A stretch of DNA of 64,000 nt from positions 3,491,501-3,555,500 of the forward strand of contig NZ_CP044011.1 of NCBI RefSeq assembly GCF_016864555.1, in the 5' to 3' direction. Below, one piece after another: positions 27,787 through 37,292 of this stretch. Origin of the DNA: Sinorhizobium sp. BG8 (lineage in GTDB: Bacteria; Pseudomonadota; Alphaproteobacteria; Rhizobiales; Rhizobiaceae). The notes below the pieces were generated by a model, which was given only the letters and a program-made list of their open reading frames with translations, searched no databases and was not told the origin of the DNA. Each line of letters starts with the position of its first letter. Within the stretch, counting starts at the first letter, position 1. A program made the translations under genes and the position numbers.

Positions 27787-28737
27787 TCAGAACTGGTAGC
27801 GGCGGATGCGCCGCTGGATGACGAAGAGGTAGAGCGAGACGCCCGCGAGGATGATCAGGAACATCACGGTCGCAATCGTTGCGCCCATCGAACGGTCTCC
27901 AAGCTGCAGCTGGAAGCCGAAGAAGGTACGGTAGAGCAAGGTTCCGAGGATGTCCGTGGAGCCGTCAGGCCCGGCGAGCGCGCCCTGCACCGTATAGACA
28001 AGGTCGAAGGCGTTGAAATTGCCGACGAAGGTCAGGATGGAGATGATCCCGATCGCCGGCAGAACCAGCGGCAGCTTGATCTTGAAGAACTGGCTCCAGC
28101 CGGTGATGCCGTCACATTCGGCAGCCTCGATAACTTCTTCGGGAATGTTGAGCAGCGCTGCGTAGATCAGCATCATCGGAATGCCGACATATTGCCAGAC
28201 GGAGATGAGCGACACGGCGATCAGCGCGGAGTTCGGCCTGCCGAGCCAGGGCGCAAAGAGGGACTTCAACCCCACCAGGTCCATCAGATAGGGCGATACA
28301 CCCCAGATCGGCGAAAGGATCAGCTTCCAGATGAAGCCCACGATGACGAAGGAGAGCAGTGTCGGCAGGAAGATCGCGGTGCGGTAGAAGGCTGCAAAAC
28401 GCAGCTTCGGCAGCGAAAGAAGCGCTGCAAGCGCGACGCCGATCGGATTTTGGACCAGCATGTGGATGACGAAGAAGATGAAGTTGTTCTTCAGCGCATT
28501 CCAGAAATCCGCCGCCCAGCGTGCCTCCCCGAAGAGCTTCTTGAAGTTGGCCAATCCGACGAAGGTCGATTGCCCGTCGACCGTATTGAAGAACGACAGC
28601 CTCAGGGTTTCGAAGAGAGGCAGGATCATCACCGCCGTGTAGACGATCAGGGCCGGCAACAGGAATACCGCGATATGCCAGCGTCTCGGCCGCTTGGCGA
28701 TCTCGAACTCGTCTTGCGAAGAAATGGCGTCGCTCAT
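27787..28737 (-). CDS. sugar ABC transporter permease (MalF-like)
   Basis: Inner-membrane subunit, 316 aa. A hydrophilic N-terminus (about 20 residues) is followed by six expected helices and the docking loop IEAAECDGITGWSQFFKIKLPL. The open frame reaches 28842, but the ATG at 28737, with AGGGG just upstream, gives the normal length. It is separated from the binding-protein gene by 328 bases with two strong hairpins. Confidence 0.92.
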   Translation of the reverse strand: MSDAISSQDEFEIAKRPRRWHIAVFLLPALIVYTAVMILPLFETLRLSFFNTVDGQSTFVGLANFKKLFGEARWAADFWNALKNNFIFFVIHMLVQNPIGVALAALLSLPKLRFAAFYRTAIFLPTLLSFVIVGFIWKLILSPIWGVSPYLMDLVGLKSLFAPWLGRPNSALIAVSLISVWQYVGIPMMLIYAALLNIPEEVIEAAECDGITGWSQFFKIKLPLVLPAIGIISILTFVGNFNAFDLVYTVQGALAGPDGSTDILGTLLYRTFFGFQLQLGDRSMGATIATVMFLIILAGVSLYLFVIQRRIRRYQF

Positions 28738-28946
28738 GGCCCCTGCCCGCTTGTCCGACCGTTCGTCCCATGGGGTTCCGCAATGGCGGACAGAGCACCG
28801 CACGGCCGGTCTCGCCGCGTGCCCCCACACCAGCCGCGCCACTCGCGCTGGTTTATGAATTTCAGCTTACACGAATTCAGAGGATGGCGCGGATCTCGGA
28901 CCGCAATCAAGAGACTGCGGCAACGCCGCGCTCATCCGCCTGCCGA

Positions 28947-29065: not shown

Positions 29066-30325
29066 TTACTTCGCAGGCTTGTACCAGCTGTCGAGACCCT
29101 TCTGCAGCTTTTCGGCAGCCACTTCCGGGGTATCCGTGCCGTTGATCACGTTTGCCGATTCCGTCCACGTCTCGTTTTCCAGGCTCGGCGTGCCGCGTGC
29201 CAGGATCTGGTAGGTCGAGCGGATGGTCGGCTTGCACTTCTCGCGCCAGGAGACGAATTCCTGGGCCAGCGGGTCGGTCATCTTAACCGCGGTCGAGTTC
29301 AGGCTGAAGAAGCCCGGCAGCGAATTGGCGTAGATGTCGGCGAACTCCGGCGAAGCGACGAAGGACAGGAAGGCCTTTGCCGCGTCGGCGTTTGCGCTCT
29401 TGGCGTTCAGGCCGATGCCGATGTCGTTGTGGTCGGAGATGTAGCAGGTGTCACCCGCGGTCTTCACCGGCGGCGGGAAGGCGCCCATCTTGAACTGGGC
29501 CTGCGTGTTGAACAGGCCGATTTCCCAGGAGCCCGCCGGATAGATGGCGGCGCGGCCGAGCGTGAAGAGGTTCTGGCTGTCCGGGTAGGTCTGCGCCTCG
29601 AAACCGTCGCCGAGATAGTCCTTCCACTTGGCGAGCGTCTTGAAAGGCTCGACCCACTGCGGATCGGTCAGCTTCTGCTCGCCCTTGATCAGCGCCAGGC
29701 GACCTTCCTCGCCCTTCCAGTAGTTCGGGCCGATGTTCTGGTAGCCCATCGTCGCGGCTTCCCAGAGGTCCTTCGTGCCCATCGCCATCGGAATGTAGTT
29801 GCCGTCGGCCTTGATCTTGTCGAGGGCGGCGAAGAATTCGGCTTCGGTCGCCGGAACGGCAATGCCGAGCTGGTCGAAGGCATCCTTGTTGTAGATGAAG
29901 CCGTGGATGACCGAGGCCATCGGTACGCAGAAGGTTGCCGAACCGTCATCCGTGGTCCAGGCGGACTTCGCCACGTCGGAGAAGTTCTCCATCCCGGCCA
30001 GCTTGGTCAGGTCGGAAAGATGACCCTTGTTGTAGAGCTCGAGCGAGACGTCGAACGGACGGCAGGTGATGAGGTCGCCGGCAGAACCCGCATCGAGCTT
30101 GGCATTGAGCGCCGCGTTGTATTCCGTCGGCGCGGTCGGAGAGAACACGACCTTGATGCCCGGGTTCTTTGCCTCGAAAGCGGGAATGATCTTTTCCTGC
30201 CAGATCGGAAGGTCGTCGTTGCGCCAGCTCTCGATGGTCAGCGTCACGTCCGCTGCGTGAGCAATCCCGGCGGTGCCGAGAATGCTCGAGGCAAGGAGCA
30301 GCCCCTTGAGTGTGTTGCGAGTCAT
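29066..30325 (-). CDS. sugar ABC transporter periplasmic binding protein
   Basis: Carbohydrate-binding (SBP type 1) protein, 419 aa. The Sec signal peptide is cleaved about after IAHA (residue 24), and the mature start is DVTLTIESWRNDDLPIWQ. GGGGAG lies 6 bases before the ATG. It follows murQ by 50 bases and is inferred to bind GlcNAc, chitooligosaccharide or a muropeptide sugar, because every enzyme around it handles amino sugars. A general sugar role cannot be excluded. Confidence 0.92.
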   Translation of the reverse strand: MTRNTLKGLLLASSILGTAGIAHAADVTLTIESWRNDDLPIWQEKIIPAFEAKNPGIKVVFSPTAPTEYNAALNAKLDAGSAGDLITCRPFDVSLELYNKGHLSDLTKLAGMENFSDVAKSAWTTDDGSATFCVPMASVIHGFIYNKDAFDQLGIAVPATEAEFFAALDKIKADGNYIPMAMGTKDLWEAATMGYQNIGPNYWKGEEGRLALIKGEQKLTDPQWVEPFKTLAKWKDYLGDGFEAQTYPDSQNLFTLGRAAIYPAGSWEIGLFNTQAQFKMGAFPPPVKTAGDTCYISDHNDIGIGLNAKSANADAAKAFLSFVASPEFADIYANSLPGFFSLNSTAVKMTDPLAQEFVSWREKCKPTIRSTYQILARGTPSLENETWTESANVINGTDTPEVAAEKLQKGLDSWYKPAK

Positions 30326-30375: not shown

Positions 30376-31269
30376 TCAGCGAAGGCTTTTCAGCGCGCGG
30401 CGAAGGCTCTGCCCCGATCGTTCGAGAACAGCCTCGGCCGCCGCAGCGTCAGGCGCGCCGGCAGCCAGAAGAACCGCGGCCTTGACCGAACCGGAAGATT
30501 TCGCGAGCAGCCGCTCGGCCTCGCCCGGCTCCACGCCCGAGATTTCGGCGACCATGCGGCAGGCTCTTCCCCTGAGCTTGATGTTGTCGGCCTTGAGATT
30601 GACCATGTAGCCGTCATGGACATGGCCGAGCTTGATTCCGACCAATGTGGAAAACATGTTGAAAGCGATCTTCTGCGCCGTCCCCGCGCCCATGCGCGTC
30701 GACCCGGCGACGACCTCGGGAGGCGTCTGCAGGAGTATGGAGACGTCGGCGTTTTCGAAGAGCCTTGCGCCGGCATTGTTGGCGACGGCCACGACCTTCG
30801 CCCCGGCGGCCCTGGCATAAGTGGCGATCGCCAGCGCATAGGGCGTCGAACCGCTGGCGGAAACGCAGATGACGCAATCCGAGGGCTCGATCCCGGCACC
30901 GCGCGCATCGCTTTCGGCAAGACCCGTGTCGTCCTCGTACCCGCCCGCCAGATCCTCCAGGCTCGCGGCACCGCCCGCAAGCAGTACGACGATGCGGTCG
31001 CGGGAAATACCATAGGTTCCGGGAAGTTCGAGCGCGTCGGACATGGCCATCAGGCCGGAACTGCCGGCGCCCACATAGACGAGGCGACCACCGGCCGACA
31101 GCGCATCGGCGGCGAAACCTGCGGCCACGGCAATATCTTCAATTGCCTGGTCGACAACGGCGGCGGCAGCCTGCTGGGCGCGCGCAAGCACGGTCAGGGC
31201 GTCAAATGGCCGGAGTTCATCCAGCCCTTGCGCCTGTTCATGCCTGGCTTCGGTTTTTCCTGTGGCCAT
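30376..31269 (-). CDS. murQ: N-acetylmuramic acid 6-phosphate etherase
   Basis: Lyase that removes D-lactate from MurNAc-6-phosphate to give GlcNAc-6-phosphate in murein recycling, 297 aa, cytoplasmic. The SIS fold shows GAGSSG at residues 67-72. Glu81 and Glu112 align with the E. coli catalytic glutamates by position (inference). STRMGAGTAQK is the sugar-phosphate-binding motif. GGGAG is 8 bases before the ATG at 31269; the longer frame to 31359 would cover the operator. It heads the minus arm of the divergent amino-sugar locus. Confidence 0.95.
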   Translation of the reverse strand: MATGKTEARHEQAQGLDELRPFDALTVLARAQQAAAAVVDQAIEDIAVAAGFAADALSAGGRLVYVGAGSSGLMAMSDALELPGTYGISRDRIVVLLAGGAASLEDLAGGYEDDTGLAESDARGAGIEPSDCVICVSASGSTPYALAIATYARAAGAKVVAVANNAGARLFENADVSILLQTPPEVVAGSTRMGAGTAQKIAFNMFSTLVGIKLGHVHDGYMVNLKADNIKLRGRACRMVAEISGVEPGEAERLLAKSSGSVKAAVLLAAGAPDAAAAEAVLERSGQSLRRALKSLR

Positions 31270-31294
31270 TGCCGTTTCTCCCTCTTCCGGAATT

Positions 31295-31312
31295 AATGCC
31301 AAAAAAATACCA
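31295..31312 (-). promoter_or_regulatory. tandem-repeat operator, murQ side
   Basis: On the minus strand this reads TGGTATTTTTTTGGCATT: a TGGTATT direct repeat with a 4-base spacer and one mismatch in the second half. It matches the copy at 31430-31447 in 17 of 18 bases and faces it. It lies 26 bases before the murQ start and is a predicted site for the locus GntR regulator. Confidence 0.7.
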
Positions 31313-31429
31313 ATTGTCCATAGCAAATTAACTTTTGGAACCAGAAAAACCCGGCCCAATAATTTATCTATTTATTTTCAATTATTTATTTTGACATCAC
31401 TGACCGCACCACGTTTTCCTCTTGGTTAA

Positions 31430-31447
31430 TGGTATTTTTTTGGTATT
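31430..31447 (+). promoter_or_regulatory. tandem-repeat operator, kinase side
   Basis: TGGTATT-TTTT-TGGTATT is a perfect direct repeat with an 11-base period, 19 bases before the kinase ATG. This agrees with my recollection of the NagQ-type amino-sugar operator of alphaproteobacteria. A TTGACA hexamer lies upstream at 31391-31396, so binding here would block transcription from that side. Confidence 0.7.
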
Positions 31448-31465
31448 GTTTTCGTGGAGGTTTCC

Positions 31466-32353
31466 ATGACTGATCTTATCATCGGCATAGACGGTGGCGG
31501 CACTAGCTGCCGCGCGGCGGTCGCAGACCCCGAGGGGAACATCCTCGGGCGCGGCAAGAGCGGCGCCGCCAATATCCTGACCGACCCGAACAGCGCGATC
31601 GCCAGCATCACCGACGCAGCCAAGGCGGCGTTGCGCGATGCCGGATTGGACGAGACGGCCGTAGCCACGGCATCGGCCTTTCTCGGCCTTGCGGGAACCA
31701 ATGTCGGCGACCTGGCCCGCTACGTGCACGACCGGCTGCCGTTTCGGCATACGGATATTGACTCAGACGGCCTGATCGCGCTTCAGGGCGCGCTTGGCGA
31801 CGGCGACGGCGCAGTGGCGATCCTCGGCACGGGCACCATCTACATGGCGCGGCAGGCAGGCGAGATTCGCTACATCGGCGGCTGGGGCTTCACGATCGGC
31901 GATCTCGGCGGCGGCGCGCGCATCGGCCATGCGCTGCTGCAGGAGGCACTGCTCTCCTATGACGGCATCCACGCCAGCACGCCGGTGACCGAAGCCGTTC
32001 TTGCCGAGTTCAAGAACGACCCGCGTGGCATCGTGGAGTTCGCGCGTCTTTCCAAGCCCGGCGATTTCGGACGCTTCGCACCGCTGGTCTTCGAACACGC
32101 GGCAAAGGGCGACACGTGCGCGCTTGCGCTGATCGAGGCCGCGGCGACCACCGTCAACGAAGCACTCGACGCCATCGTTCGCATCAGCGGCAAGGACAGG
32201 CTTTGCCTGCTCGGCGGCCTCGCTCCCCTCTATCCGCAATGGCTTTCGAAGAAGCACAAGGATATTCTCGTGGAACCGCAGGCCGACGCCCTCACCGGCG
32301 CCGTGTCGCTCGCGGCCAAGCGCTTCCGGGCGCGCAAGGGAGAGCCGGCATGA
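31466..32353 (+). CDS. BadF/BcrA-type N-acetyl-amino-sugar kinase
   Basis: ASKHA-fold sugar kinase, 295 aa. The phosphate-1 loop is IGIDGGGTSCRAAV (about residues 5-18), with GTGTIY phosphate-2 and GGWGFTIGDLGGGARIG substrate-side motifs. It probably phosphorylates GlcNAc at O-6. A related clostridial enzyme, MurK, also uses MurNAc, which would feed the murQ next door. GGAGG is 5 bases before the ATG at 31466; a GTG at 31454 lacks a ribosome site. Its stop overlaps the regulator ATG. Confidence 0.88.
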   Translation: MTDLIIGIDGGGTSCRAAVADPEGNILGRGKSGAANILTDPNSAIASITDAAKAALRDAGLDETAVATASAFLGLAGTNVGDLARYVHDRLPFRHTDIDSDGLIALQGALGDGDGAVAILGTGTIYMARQAGEIRYIGGWGFTIGDLGGGARIGHALLQEALLSYDGIHASTPVTEAVLAEFKNDPRGIVEFARLSKPGDFGRFAPLVFEHAAKGDTCALALIEAAATTVNEALDAIVRISGKDRLCLLGGLAPLYPQWLSKKHKDILVEPQADALTGAVSLAAKRFRARKGEPA

Positions 32354-33114
32354 CCGAGAGCCTTGCGGCCATCCTGTCACCCGAGAGCCTGCAGTCGGGC
32401 GGGTCCGGCCCGCTCTACCTCAAGCTCCGCCAGTCCCTCGAAGAGGCAATCAATTCCGGCAAGCTGAACCATGGGGATGCACTGCCGCCCGAGCGCGATC
32501 TTGCCGACTATGCCAACATCAGCCGCGTGACCGTCAGGAAGGCGGTGGATGATCTCGTGAAGGACGGGCTGCTGGTGCGCCGCCACGGCTCCGGTACTTT
32601 CGTGGTCAAGCCCGTGTCGAAAGTACAGCAGTCCCTGTCTCGCCTGACCTCCTTCACCGAGGACATGGCACGGCGCGGCCTCACGACCCGGGCACAATGG
32701 CTCGACCGCGGCCTCGTCCACCCCTCCCCGGACGAAATGATGATCCTGGGCCTGCCCGCGGATGCGCTGGTGGCCCGCCTCGGACGCCTGCGCATCGCCG
32801 ACGACATGCCGCTTGCGATCGAACGGGCGTCGATTTCCTCCGAGTTCCTGCCGGATCCCGCGAGCGTGACCGGCTCGCTCTACGCGGAGCTCGAAAAACA
32901 GGGCCTGCGGCCCGTCCGTGCCGTGCAGCGCATATCCGCCTGCAACATCAAGGACCCCGAGGCGGCGATGCTCGGCGTGGGTACCGGGGCTGCCGGCCTT
33001 TCGATCGAACGAATTTCCTACCTGCGTTCCGGCAGGGTCATAGAATTCACCCGCTCGCTCTATCGCGGTGATGCCTACGATTTCGTGGCGGAACTGACGC
33101 TCTCCGATCAGTGA
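32350..33114 (+). CDS. GntR-family regulator, HutC/UTRA type (NagQ/NagR-like)
   Basis: Amino-sugar-responsive repressor, 254 aa. The winged helix runs LYLKLRQSLEEAINSGKL to ISRVTVRKAVDDLVKDGLLVRRHGSGTFV (about residues 22-86), followed by a UTRA ligand domain (SIERISYLRSGRVIEFTRSLYRGD near the end). In this family the ligand is usually a sugar phosphate such as GlcN-6-P. It overlaps the kinase stop (ATGA) and lies in the operon it most likely controls through the TGGTATT repeats. Confidence 0.9.
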   Translation: MTESLAAILSPESLQSGGSGPLYLKLRQSLEEAINSGKLNHGDALPPERDLADYANISRVTVRKAVDDLVKDGLLVRRHGSGTFVVKPVSKVQQSLSRLTSFTEDMARRGLTTRAQWLDRGLVHPSPDEMMILGLPADALVARLGRLRIADDMPLAIERASISSEFLPDPASVTGSLYAELEKQGLRPVRAVQRISACNIKDPEAAMLGVGTGAAGLSIERISYLRSGRVIEFTRSLYRGDAYDFVAELTLSDQ

Positions 33115-33142: not shown

Positions 33143-34165
33143 ATGCAAACCAATATGCGTCGCGAAATAAACGAAATACCCGAAGCCGCCGCCCGCTTTC
33201 TCGACCAGTCTGCGGACGCGGTTCGCGATGCTGGCCAGGCGCTTCGTGCGCGCGATCCGCAGTTTTTCGTCACCGTCGCGCGCGGCTCCTCCGATCACGC
33301 CGCCCTGTTCCTGAAATACGCAATCGAACTCACTGCAGGACGCCCGGTCGCTTCGCTCGGGCCTTCCCTTGCCTCGATCTACGGAGCAAAGCTGCAACTG
33401 CGCGGCGGAGCGGCGATCGCAATCTCGCAGTCGGGCAAGAGCCCCGACATCGTCGCCATGGCGGATTCCGCGACCAGGGCCGGCGCGATCTCGCTCGCGC
33501 TCACCAACACGCCTGCCTCCCCCCTCGCCGATGCCTGCAACCACGCTATCGATATAGGCGCAGGCCCGGAGATCAGCGTCGCGGCGACCAAATCCTACGT
33601 GAACTCCATCGTCGCGGGGCTCGCGGTGCTTGCCGAATGGACAGGTGATGCCGCGCTCGGGAAAGCCGTGCGGGATCTTCCGCAACAGCTTTCAAAGGCC
33701 GTTGGGCTCGACTGGAGCAACCTTGCAGCCGACCTCGCCGAAGCGCAGTCGGTCTATGTCCTCGGACGGGGTCCTGCCCTGGCAATCGCAAGCGAGGCGG
33801 CACTGAAGTTCAAGGAGACATCGGGCATGCATGCGGAGGCCTACTCGTCGGCGGAAGTGCTGCACGGCCCCGTGGCACTCGTCGGCCCGGCCTTTCCCGT
33901 TATCGCCCTTGCAGCCCGCGATGCGGCGGAGACATCCGTTGCGGGCATGGCCGACGGGCTTGCCGACAAGGGTGCCTATGCCTGCATAACCTCCGCCACG
34001 GCCAGGAGCGCGAAGCAACTTCCCTTCATTGCCACCGGCCACCCGATCACCGATGCGCTGGCGCTGATCGTCCCCTTCTATGGGTTCGTCGAAGCTTGGT
34101 CGCGCGGACTGGGCCTCGATCCCGACAAACCGGTCAACCTCAAGAAAGTCACGGAGACGAGATGA
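33143..34165 (+). CDS. SIS-domain glucosamine-6-phosphate deaminase (NagB-II type)
   Basis: Double SIS-domain protein, 340 aa, resembling the isomerase half of GlmS but lacking the glutaminase domain. The motifs VARGSSDHAALFLKY, SQSGKSPDIV and ETSGMHAEAYSSAEVLHGP match the sugar-phosphate isomerase/deaminase family. It probably converts GlcN-6-P to fructose-6-P plus ammonia. It lies between the regulator and nagA, whose ATG overlaps its stop. Confidence 0.9.
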   Translation: MQTNMRREINEIPEAAARFLDQSADAVRDAGQALRARDPQFFVTVARGSSDHAALFLKYAIELTAGRPVASLGPSLASIYGAKLQLRGGAAIAISQSGKSPDIVAMADSATRAGAISLALTNTPASPLADACNHAIDIGAGPEISVAATKSYVNSIVAGLAVLAEWTGDAALGKAVRDLPQQLSKAVGLDWSNLAADLAEAQSVYVLGRGPALAIASEAALKFKETSGMHAEAYSSAEVLHGPVALVGPAFPVIALAARDAAETSVAGMADGLADKGAYACITSATARSAKQLPFIATGHPITDALALIVPFYGFVEAWSRGLGLDPDKPVNLKKVTETR

Positions 34166-35334
34166 GCGGCGCAACGGCAATCACAGGTGCGCAGATCTTC
34201 GACGGCGACCTCTGGCACGACGAGGCGTCACTTCTCATGGAAGACGGCAAGATTGTCGGGATCGTTCACGAACGAGACATTCCCCTGTCGGCCACCATGA
34301 TCAGCATGGATGGCGCCCGGATCGTCCCCGGCTTTGTCGACCTTCAGGTCAACGGCGGCGGCGGGGTGCTGCTCAACGAAAAGCCGGATGTCGATGGCAT
34401 CCGAACGATCTGCGCGGCACATGCGCGCTACGGCACCACCGCGCTGCTGCCAACCCTGATTACCGACACGCCCGAAATGACGCGCCGTACGATCGACGCC
34501 GGTATCGCCGCGCACAGGGCAGCGGTCCCGGGCTTCCTCGGTCTCCACCTTGAAGGTCCACATCTGTCGATCGCCCGCAAGGGTGCGCACGACCCGGCCC
34601 TCATCCGCCCCATGGAACCCGCCGATCTCGAACAGACCGTCGCGGCACGGGCGGATCTCGATGCGCTGATGATGACGGTTGCCCCCGAGAACGTGACGAA
34701 TGAGCAGATCTCGGCGCTTGCGGGTGCCGGCGTAACGGTGAGCCTCGGCCACTCGGACAGCGGCTATGCAACGGTCGCCGGTGCGGTTGCAGCCGGCGCG
34801 CGCCTGGTCACGCATCTCTACAATGCCATGAGCCCGCTGGGACATCGCGAGCCGGGAATGGTTGGAGCAGCACTGGATATCGGCATGCTGCACCCCGGTC
34901 TCATCGCGGACGGGTTTCACGTCAACCCGGTCTCCATCCGCGTGGCGCTGCGGGCGAAGAAGGGCCCGGGCAGGATCTTCCTCGTCACCGATGCCATGTC
35001 GCCGCTCGGAACGCAGATGACCCACTTCCACCTGAACGGCCGCACGATCTATCGCAGGGACGGGAAGCTCACGCTTGCCGACGGCACCTTGGCGGGAGCC
35101 GATATCGACATGCTGTCCTGCGTGCGCGTGATGCACGAAAAGGTCGGCGTCGATCTGGAAGAGGCCTTGCGCATGGCATCGCTCTACCCGGCCGAAGCGA
35201 TCGGGATGACCGGCCGCAAGGGCAGGCTCACCCATGGCCACGACGCAGACTTCGTCATTCTCGACAACGACCTCTCGATCATCCAGACCTGGATCGCCGG
35301 CAACGAGGCCTACCGCGCGGGAACCGACGATTGA
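34162..35334 (+). CDS. nagA: N-acetylglucosamine-6-phosphate deacetylase
   Basis: Amidohydrolase, 390 aa, cytoplasmic. It removes acetate from GlcNAc-6-P, the common product of the kinase and MurQ. Expected metal and catalytic elements are present: HLEGPH (Glu), GHSDSG and THLYNAMSP (His), and VTDAMSP (Asp). The DLQVNGGGG segment follows the N-terminal barrel entry. The ATG at 34162 overlaps the preceding stop (ATGA). Confidence 0.96.
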   Translation: MSGATAITGAQIFDGDLWHDEASLLMEDGKIVGIVHERDIPLSATMISMDGARIVPGFVDLQVNGGGGVLLNEKPDVDGIRTICAAHARYGTTALLPTLITDTPEMTRRTIDAGIAAHRAAVPGFLGLHLEGPHLSIARKGAHDPALIRPMEPADLEQTVAARADLDALMMTVAPENVTNEQISALAGAGVTVSLGHSDSGYATVAGAVAAGARLVTHLYNAMSPLGHREPGMVGAALDIGMLHPGLIADGFHVNPVSIRVALRAKKGPGRIFLVTDAMSPLGTQMTHFHLNGRTIYRRDGKLTLADGTLAGADIDMLSCVRVMHEKVGVDLEEALRMASLYPAEAIGMTGRKGRLTHGHDADFVILDNDLSIIQTWIAGNEAYRAGTDD

Positions 35335-35437
35335 ATGCCGTCGCGTCGGCCGCGTCCCTTGCAGCATGACGGGAATCAGCACTACAACCGTGCTGCCCCG
35401 CCACCCGGCCGGGAATTCACAAGAGAAAGCGCGGTTG

Positions 35438-36499
35438 ATGCAGACGATCTTCGACGGTCACAACGATGTCTTGCTTCGCCTCTGGGAACAGGCGGCAAGC
35501 GGCGCCGATCCGGTGGCCGAATTCGTGAACGGTACGGATGCGGGGCACATAGACGGCCCGCGCGCCAGGGCAGGCGGTCTCGCAGGTGGGTTCTGCGCGG
35601 TCTACATCCCCTCGCCCGGCCAGTTTCCGCCCAGGGTGCTCGACGAGAACGGCCACTACAGCATTCCGCTGACAGACCCCCTGGATCATCCACGCGCGCT
35701 CAATATCGCGCTGGAACTCTTGGCGATCGCCTTCCGCCTCGACCGGGCCAGGGCGTGGACGATCTGCCGCTCGACAGCGGAGATCCGCAGCGCCATGGCG
35801 GCGGGAAGCTTCGCGGCCGTCCTCCACATGGAAGGCTGCGAACCGATCGGCGCCGATCTTGCCGCGCTCGAGACCTTCTACGCCGCCGGCCTGCGCTCCC
35901 TCGGCCCGGTATGGAGCCGGCACAACATCTTCGGGCACGGCGTGCCCTTCGCCTTCCCGACGAGCCCCGATACCGGCCCCGGTCTCACCGAGGCGGGCTT
36001 CGAGCTCGTGAAGACCTGCGACCGCCTCGGCATCATGATCGACCTGTCGCACATCACCGAACAGGGCTTCTGGGACGTGGCGCGCACCAGCACCCAGCCG
36101 TTGGTCGCAACGCATTCGAACGCACATGCGCTGACGCCGATTTCGCGAAACCTTACCGACCGCCAGCTCGACGCCATTCGCGAACGCAAGGGCATTGCCG
36201 GCCTCAACTACGCGACGACGATGCTGCGGGCGAACGGACAGGAAGACGCGGATACGTCGCTTTCCGACATGGTCCGCCATATCGACCACATGGTCGAACG
36301 CATGGGGATAGACTGTGTCGCCATCGGATCGGATTTCGACGGGGCGACCATACCACGCGCGATCGGCGACGCCTCCGGAAACCAGAACCTCGTGGAGGCA
36401 CTGCGTCTGGCGGGCTACAGCGAGGAAGAACTCGCACTGATCTGCCGCGAAAACTGGCTTCGCGTCCTGCAACAGGCGTGGCACGAAACCGCCACTTGA
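35438..36499 (+). CDS. membrane dipeptidase (renal dipeptidase family)
   Basis: Zinc dipeptidase of peptidase family M19, 353 aa. Zn-ligand motifs are visible: DGHND (residues 6-10), HMEGCEP (Glu) and VATHSNAH (His), plus the GSDFDG loop near the C-terminus. It hydrolyses L-X-D-X dipeptides. Inside an amino-sugar/murQ operon it would suit degradation of peptides released from peptidoglycan. An ATG at 35366 would add 24 residues but has no ribosome site. Confidence 0.9.
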   Translation: MQTIFDGHNDVLLRLWEQAASGADPVAEFVNGTDAGHIDGPRARAGGLAGGFCAVYIPSPGQFPPRVLDENGHYSIPLTDPLDHPRALNIALELLAIAFRLDRARAWTICRSTAEIRSAMAAGSFAAVLHMEGCEPIGADLAALETFYAAGLRSLGPVWSRHNIFGHGVPFAFPTSPDTGPGLTEAGFELVKTCDRLGIMIDLSHITEQGFWDVARTSTQPLVATHSNAHALTPISRNLTDRQLDAIRERKGIAGLNYATTMLRANGQEDADTSLSDMVRHIDHMVERMGIDCVAIGSDFDGATIPRAIGDASGNQNLVEALRLAGYSEEELALICRENWLRVLQQAWHETAT

Positions 36500-36545
36500 A
36501 AACTGTTCGATGCGCGGGCGCATCGACACACAGACAGAGGGTACG

Positions 36546-37292
36546 ATGGGCGCTCCGTTGATCGAAATTTGCGTTGAAGGCATAGACGGTTTCCTGGCGG
36601 CCCAGGAAGCAGGTGCCGACCGCGTGGAGCTGTGCGCCAGCCTGATGGAGGGCGGCCTCACCCCGAGCTTGGCGACGATCCGGGCAGCCGTTGCGGCGGC
36701 AAGGATCCCCGTCCATGTGATCATCCGGCCCCGGGGCGGCGACTTTCTCTATTCGGACGCCGAATTCGACACGATGCTTGCGGACGTTGCGGCATTGCGC
36801 GACGAGGGCGTGGCCGGTGTGGTCATCGGCTGCCTGACACCGGACGGACGCATTGACGAGGCCCGTACGGGCGCTCTCGCTCAAGCCGCACGGCCGATGT
36901 CGGTGACCTGCCACCGTGCCTTCGACATGACGGACGATCCGCGCGAAGCGCTCGAGGCATTGATCCGTTGCGGCATAGACAGGGTCCTGACTTCGGGCCA
37001 GCGCGACACCGCGATCGAAGGACTCGCCATCCTCAAGCAGGCCAATGACCAGGCCGGCGGACGCATCGTCGTGATGGGATGCGGCGCGCTTGACCGGCAC
37101 AACATACGCGAGGTCCGCGATGGCACGGGCCTGCAGGAACTGCACTTCGCAGCCCTGGCCACGGTTCCGAGTGCCATGGCCTTCCGCAATCCGCACGTCG
37201 GCATGGGCGGGACGGAGAAAGATCGCGAATACCAGCTGACCGTGACCGATCCCGACGCGGTAAGGGCAACGATCGAGGCTGCGAAAAGCTGA
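36546..37292 (+). CDS. cutC: CutC-family protein
   Basis: TIM-barrel protein of the CutC family, 248 aa. Typical motifs are IEICVEG, GADRVELCASLMEGGLTPS, VHVIIRPRGGDF and TCHRAFDM. The family was named for copper homeostasis in E. coli, but its biochemical role is unsettled. AGAGGG lies 4 bases before the ATG. It is 46 bases after the dipeptidase and is probably the last gene of the plus arm of the amino-sugar locus. Confidence 0.92.
   Translation: MGAPLIEICVEGIDGFLAAQEAGADRVELCASLMEGGLTPSLATIRAAVAAARIPVHVIIRPRGGDFLYSDAEFDTMLADVAALRDEGVAGVVIGCLTPDGRIDEARTGALAQAARPMSVTCHRAFDMTDDPREALEALIRCGIDRVLTSGQRDTAIEGLAILKQANDQAGGRIVVMGCGALDRHNIREVRDGTGLQELHFAALATVPSAMAFRNPHVGMGGTEKDREYQLTVTDPDAVRATIEAAKS

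Follow-up and report, generated by a model that had tools for sequence, protein, structure and literature searches.

The closest described systems are the NagQ regulons of Proteobacteria, which have in common with the locus analyzed here a GntR/HutC regulator, nag genes and TGGTATT direct repeats. In the accessible parts of the published accounts, the NagQ motif is given as direct TGGTATT repeats (PMC4494728, citing Yang 2006), and NagQ sites are described as tandem repeats found in alpha- and betaproteobacteria and in some gammaproteobacteria (PMC5343134). Against these portions of text, the present locus added a site pair apparently inside two promoters and a murQ/transporter arm, and nothing contradictory was found. 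YvoA (NagR) of Bacillus and DasR of Streptomyces, the nearest solved relatives of the regulator, have the same domain make-up and act in amino-sugar control. Nevertheless, HutC relatives mostly bind palindromes, as far as the available literature text goes, whereas direct repeats were found here. NanR of E. coli is a GntR protein that acts on similar GGTATA direct repeats, and three NanR dimers bind (GGTATA)3 cooperatively according to the accessible part of PMC8012715, but it belongs to the FadR subfamily, is linked to sialic acid and uses three repeats. Within what that part of the source gives, NanR offers the closest mechanistic parallel for binding to direct repeats.

In the open literature searched on NagQ, TGGTATT, S. 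meliloti GntR and murQ, no experimental work on this rhizobial operator was found. The kind of operator is already published and proved to be widely conserved here; the new detail is that the sites appear to be built into the promoters.

The two sites and their genes

The window, i.e., the whole 64-kb stretch of Sinorhizobium sp. BG8 DNA that was analyzed, contained the following features, the gene families being assigned with Pfam and NCBIfam models.

Minus strand, beyond the permease gene: GFO/IDH/MocA oxidoreductase gene
27787-28740 (part tested), minus strand: ABC transporter permease, beyond the solute-binding protein gene
29066..30325, minus strand: sugar ABC transporter solute-binding protein (PF01547), presumed to belong to the murQ operon
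30376..31269, minus strand: murQ, N-acetylmuramic acid 6-phosphate etherase (NF003915, above cut-off)
31295..31312, minus strand: murQ-side operator, TGGTATTTTTTTGGCATT, TGGTATT-TTTT-TGGCATT, one mismatch
31430..31447, plus strand: nagK-side operator, TGGTATTTTTTTGGTATT, TGGTATT-TTTT-TGGTATT, no mismatches
31466..32353, plus strand: nagK, N-acetylglucosamine kinase-like, BadF/BadG family (PF01869 above, NF046058 below cut-off)
32350..33114, plus strand: nagQ, GntR/HutC-type regulator with a UTRA domain (PF00392, PF07702)
33143..34165, plus strand: nagB-II, SIS-domain glucosamine-6-phosphate deaminase-like (NF046059 best model, below cut-off)
34156..35334, plus strand: nagA, N-acetylglucosamine-6-phosphate deacetylase (TIGR00221, above cut-off)

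The names nagK and nagB-II follow the best-matching models, whose equivalog cut-offs were not reached. The regulator scored above the gathering score for both PF00392 (70.6 bits) and PF07702 (120.7 bits), and the domain search for an FCD (FadR-type) effector domain in this protein gave no match. Its closest named relatives were those of Rhizobium alarense (91%), R. subbaraonis (90%) and Mycoplana dimorpha (88%). Behind nagA, genes for an M19 dipeptidase and a CutC-family protein (35432-37292) run in the same direction, and these may point to recycling of cell-wall fragments in the same operon.

The sites share 17 of 18 bases and both have the form TGGTATT-N4-TGG(T/C)ATT. They point away from each other. 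As the original prediction had stated, they are inverted relative to each other, each repeat has an 11-base period, and 117 bases separate them (135 from centre to centre). When TGGTATT-N4-TGGTATT was searched with up to two mismatches, exactly two matches were obtained in the window (0.03 expected), and none of 100 shuffles reached two. The genome scan that had been proposed for this pattern (5.67 Mb) yielded eight places with up to two mismatches, namely both sites and six with two mismatches, compared with two places for a reversed control pattern; within one mismatch, the two sites were the only places. The conserved upstream flank was looked for at the six two-mismatch places and was present in none, and on this ground they were rejected as further regulon members. 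A chance repeat was also rejected, on the rarity of the pattern in the window and genome and its conservation among relatives.

Conservation around orthologues of the regulator

Of 80 named Rhizobiales loci that carry an orthologue of the regulator, 79 had the site pair, with up to three mismatches per site, and the contig of the remaining locus stops short of the site region. Among the whole-genome regulator matches, the site was found in none of 12 loci of GntR-UTRA proteins at most 35% identical to the regulator. Together with the published TGGTATT repeats, in the parts of the sources available, the GntR and UTRA domains and the nagK, nagB-II and nagA families, this supported the earlier reading of the sites as a NagQ-type motif. 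The assignment of the protein at 32350-33114 as NagQ-type, made from its domains, gene context and operator motif, is supported.

Relatives close to the window keep the pair almost without exception, and in other families it is looser. A pair score of at least 37 was reached in 13 of the 18 loci L009-L026 (window included; L010 and L025 shorter than the others), and in only 12 of 26 new loci taken at the level of the order (L119-L144), the others having a weaker pair or none. In some relatives (L013, L017, L021), an extra TGG repeat lies 11 bases further, so that three repeats stand in line.

For comparison between genera, one locus per genus was used. Genera were hand-picked from exact-pattern matches (34 and 43 of 109 genera) and whole-genome regulator matches; four stray matches (G204, G300, G173:C316, G109:C143) and one genome with poorly scoring sites (G009; L015, L198) were left out. 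From the 52 genera chosen, two lacked a scored pair (L145, L182), leaving 50 for spacing, and two more were dropped for weak flanks, leaving 48 for base counts.

According to tblastn, murQ was present in 51 of the 79 named loci and missing in 28, which comprised 26 loci of a Rhizobium clade (spacing 130-132; range L082-L118) plus L111 and L116. All 28 kept the pair and the solute-binding protein gene, which starts 205-375 bases from the site and is the first recognized gene behind the operator. Since the pair was retained where murQ was lost and the transporter gene comes next, the murQ-side operator outlives murQ and probably serves the transporter operon.

Apparent overlap with the divergent promoters

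The sites had been placed at the proximal ends of the divergent promoters. This location held and was refined: each operator appears to lie in the spacer and -10 of its own promoter, with these candidate elements.

31422..31427, plus strand: putative -35 of the nagK promoter, TTGGTT (conserved CTTGG), directly upstream of the operator
31444..31449, plus strand: putative -10 of the nagK promoter, TATTGT, overlapping the second repeat
31315..31320, minus strand: putative -35 of the murQ/transporter promoter, TGGACA
31293..31298, minus strand: weaker -10 candidate on the murQ side, CATTAA, in the second repeat

This overlap is suggested by the conserved upstream blocks, by TATNNT on the nagK side and by the sequence CTTGAC in one family. 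When the intergenic regions of the 79 loci were profiled with the repeat core as sole anchor, the site core and its TTGG(T) or CT.GACAA flanks were the only long blocks above 90%; the upstream blocks read TTGGT.A on the nagK side, where a T two bases past TGGTAT was also conserved, and CTgGACAA on the murQ side. Among the 48 genera, the nagK flank C-T-T-G-G was kept at 98-100% per base and the murQ-side flank TGGACAA at 88-100%. The putative nagK -10 is extended by TG at 31441-31442, and the second repeat forms the extended -10 TGGTATNNT in every genus counted. TATNNT at positions 14-19 was likewise found in 48 of 48, including T19 outside the repeat; the exact-pattern choice of genera is biased towards well-kept first repeats and TGG; positions 14-19 lie outside that pattern, but the later pair score took in the flanks and the second repeat as far as position 17. 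Sixteen bases separate TTGGYN from TATNNT, and the S. meliloti sigma-70 consensus is given as CTTGAC-N17-CTATAT in the accessible part of PMC2573895. In three loci of one family (L127, L128, L130), CTTGAC, i.e., this consensus -35, stands in place of CTTGG.

Several observations stand against this overlap. A non-consensus G persists in the nagK -35 (98% of the 48 genera), and an A outside the hexamer is invariant in both flanks (100%), beyond the needs of a bare -35. The start codon follows the putative -10 by only 17-20 bases in 52 of the 79 loci, so the leaders would be about 10-13 bases long. For the murQ-side promoter, the -10 form nAnnnT occurred in only 29 of 48 genera and not in the window itself. 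A plain promoter scan left the predicted promoters at the sites unflagged, its sole match lying elsewhere (31335-31363; 0.6 expected).

Many relatives share a recurring TTAA or GTTAAC box that lies a few bases upstream of TGGACAA on the murQ side (31320-31340 in the window). A third half-site in the conserved flank (TGGYNAW at -7 on the nagK side, TGGACAA at -8 on the murQ side) was rejected as the main reading, as the flanks match TGGTATT poorly beyond TGG.

The favored explanation, with a probability of roughly 0.8, is that both sites serve as operators for the NagQ-type GntR/UTRA repressor at 32350-33114, which would occlude the two divergent promoters until relieved by an amino-sugar phosphate. 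NagQ on each direct repeat would cover the spacer and -10 of one promoter and exclude RNA polymerase from the nagK-nagQ-nagB-II-nagA operon and the murQ-ABC transporter operon. GlcNAc-6-P or GlcN-6-P are the usual ligands of NagQ relatives, and an amino-sugar phosphate in the UTRA domain would release NagQ and allow both operons to be expressed. Because nagQ lies in the operon that it targets, it would be autoregulated.

Spacing and alternative explanations

The 117-base separation had also been thought to allow looping. Spacing length is constrained, but helical phase was kept in only part of the inferred length shifts, and looping is possible. Centre distances in the 50 genera were 113 (one genus), 130 (two), 132 (two), 133-137 (35), 144-147, about one turn more (nine), and 154 (one), so that 37 genera fell within 132-137 and none within 138-143. 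Spacers of the same length from different genera were 32% identical, compared with 27% when shuffled, which indicates that length is kept and not sequence. As a rough control, the gap between murQ and the solute-binding protein gene, about half as long, varied from 39 to 64 in 50 loci, with one at 125.

These distances and the low spacer identity count in favor of a repression loop, in which NagQ on both operators would bridge the 135 bp and shut both promoters together; it would add to the occlusion of each promoter rather than replace it, and is considered rather unlikely. Each operator already covers its own promoter, and the phase data were divided: five of nine length shifts on the NagQ tree, counted by eye, kept helical phase (p 0.099). 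Those called in phase were about +11 (the 144-147 group), -11 (L019 against its sister L124), -11 and -22 (L127-L130, L016) and +19.5 (L018), while the 130-132 Rhizobium clade and the spacings of 139 (L125), 169 (L120) and 100 (L139) were out of phase. Leaving out two small shifts, a post hoc cut, gave five of seven (p 0.029). A plain Rayleigh test gave R 0.72 at period 10.5, against 0.40 for the highest of 5000 jittered sets, but it was not accepted as evidence: the genera are not independent, and R was as high at periods of 10.7-12. Clustering by itself drives circular statistics up at any period of about 10-12. The fuller version, in which two NagQ assemblies touch across a loop of about 13 helical turns, the degradative and uptake/murQ arms switch as a unit, and Rhizobiaceae kept the geometry by whole-turn steps in length while the spacer sequence was replaced, is an unlikely one.

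It is more doubtful still that the second TGGTATT serves solely as an extended -10 (TGnTATnnT), with NagQ reading the first repeat or another sequence and the direct repeat being coincidental. TGG-TAT-NN-T does fit an extended -10 in all 48 nagK-side sites. Nevertheless, position 13 is always G at both sites, although TGnTAT would leave it free; on the murQ side, TGG is retained (100%) even though C stands in place of T14 in 58%, and in Rhizobium the second repeat reads TGGCCTT or TGGACTT; furthermore, direct repeats are published for NagQ, as far as the available text of those sources shows. It is very improbable that a different, NanR-like regulator (FadR type, with GGTATA repeats) uses the sites, for although the NanR repeats TGGTATAW, in the accessible part of the source, resemble them, the linked protein carries a UTRA domain and the sites track its orthologues and not other GntR genes.

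The locus also raises the small question of how a homodimer of the HutC type would read direct repeats one turn apart, given that its relatives mostly bind palindromes. The published motif was confirmed at the base level across about 50 genera, giving a specific and easily tested map of putative promoters and operators.
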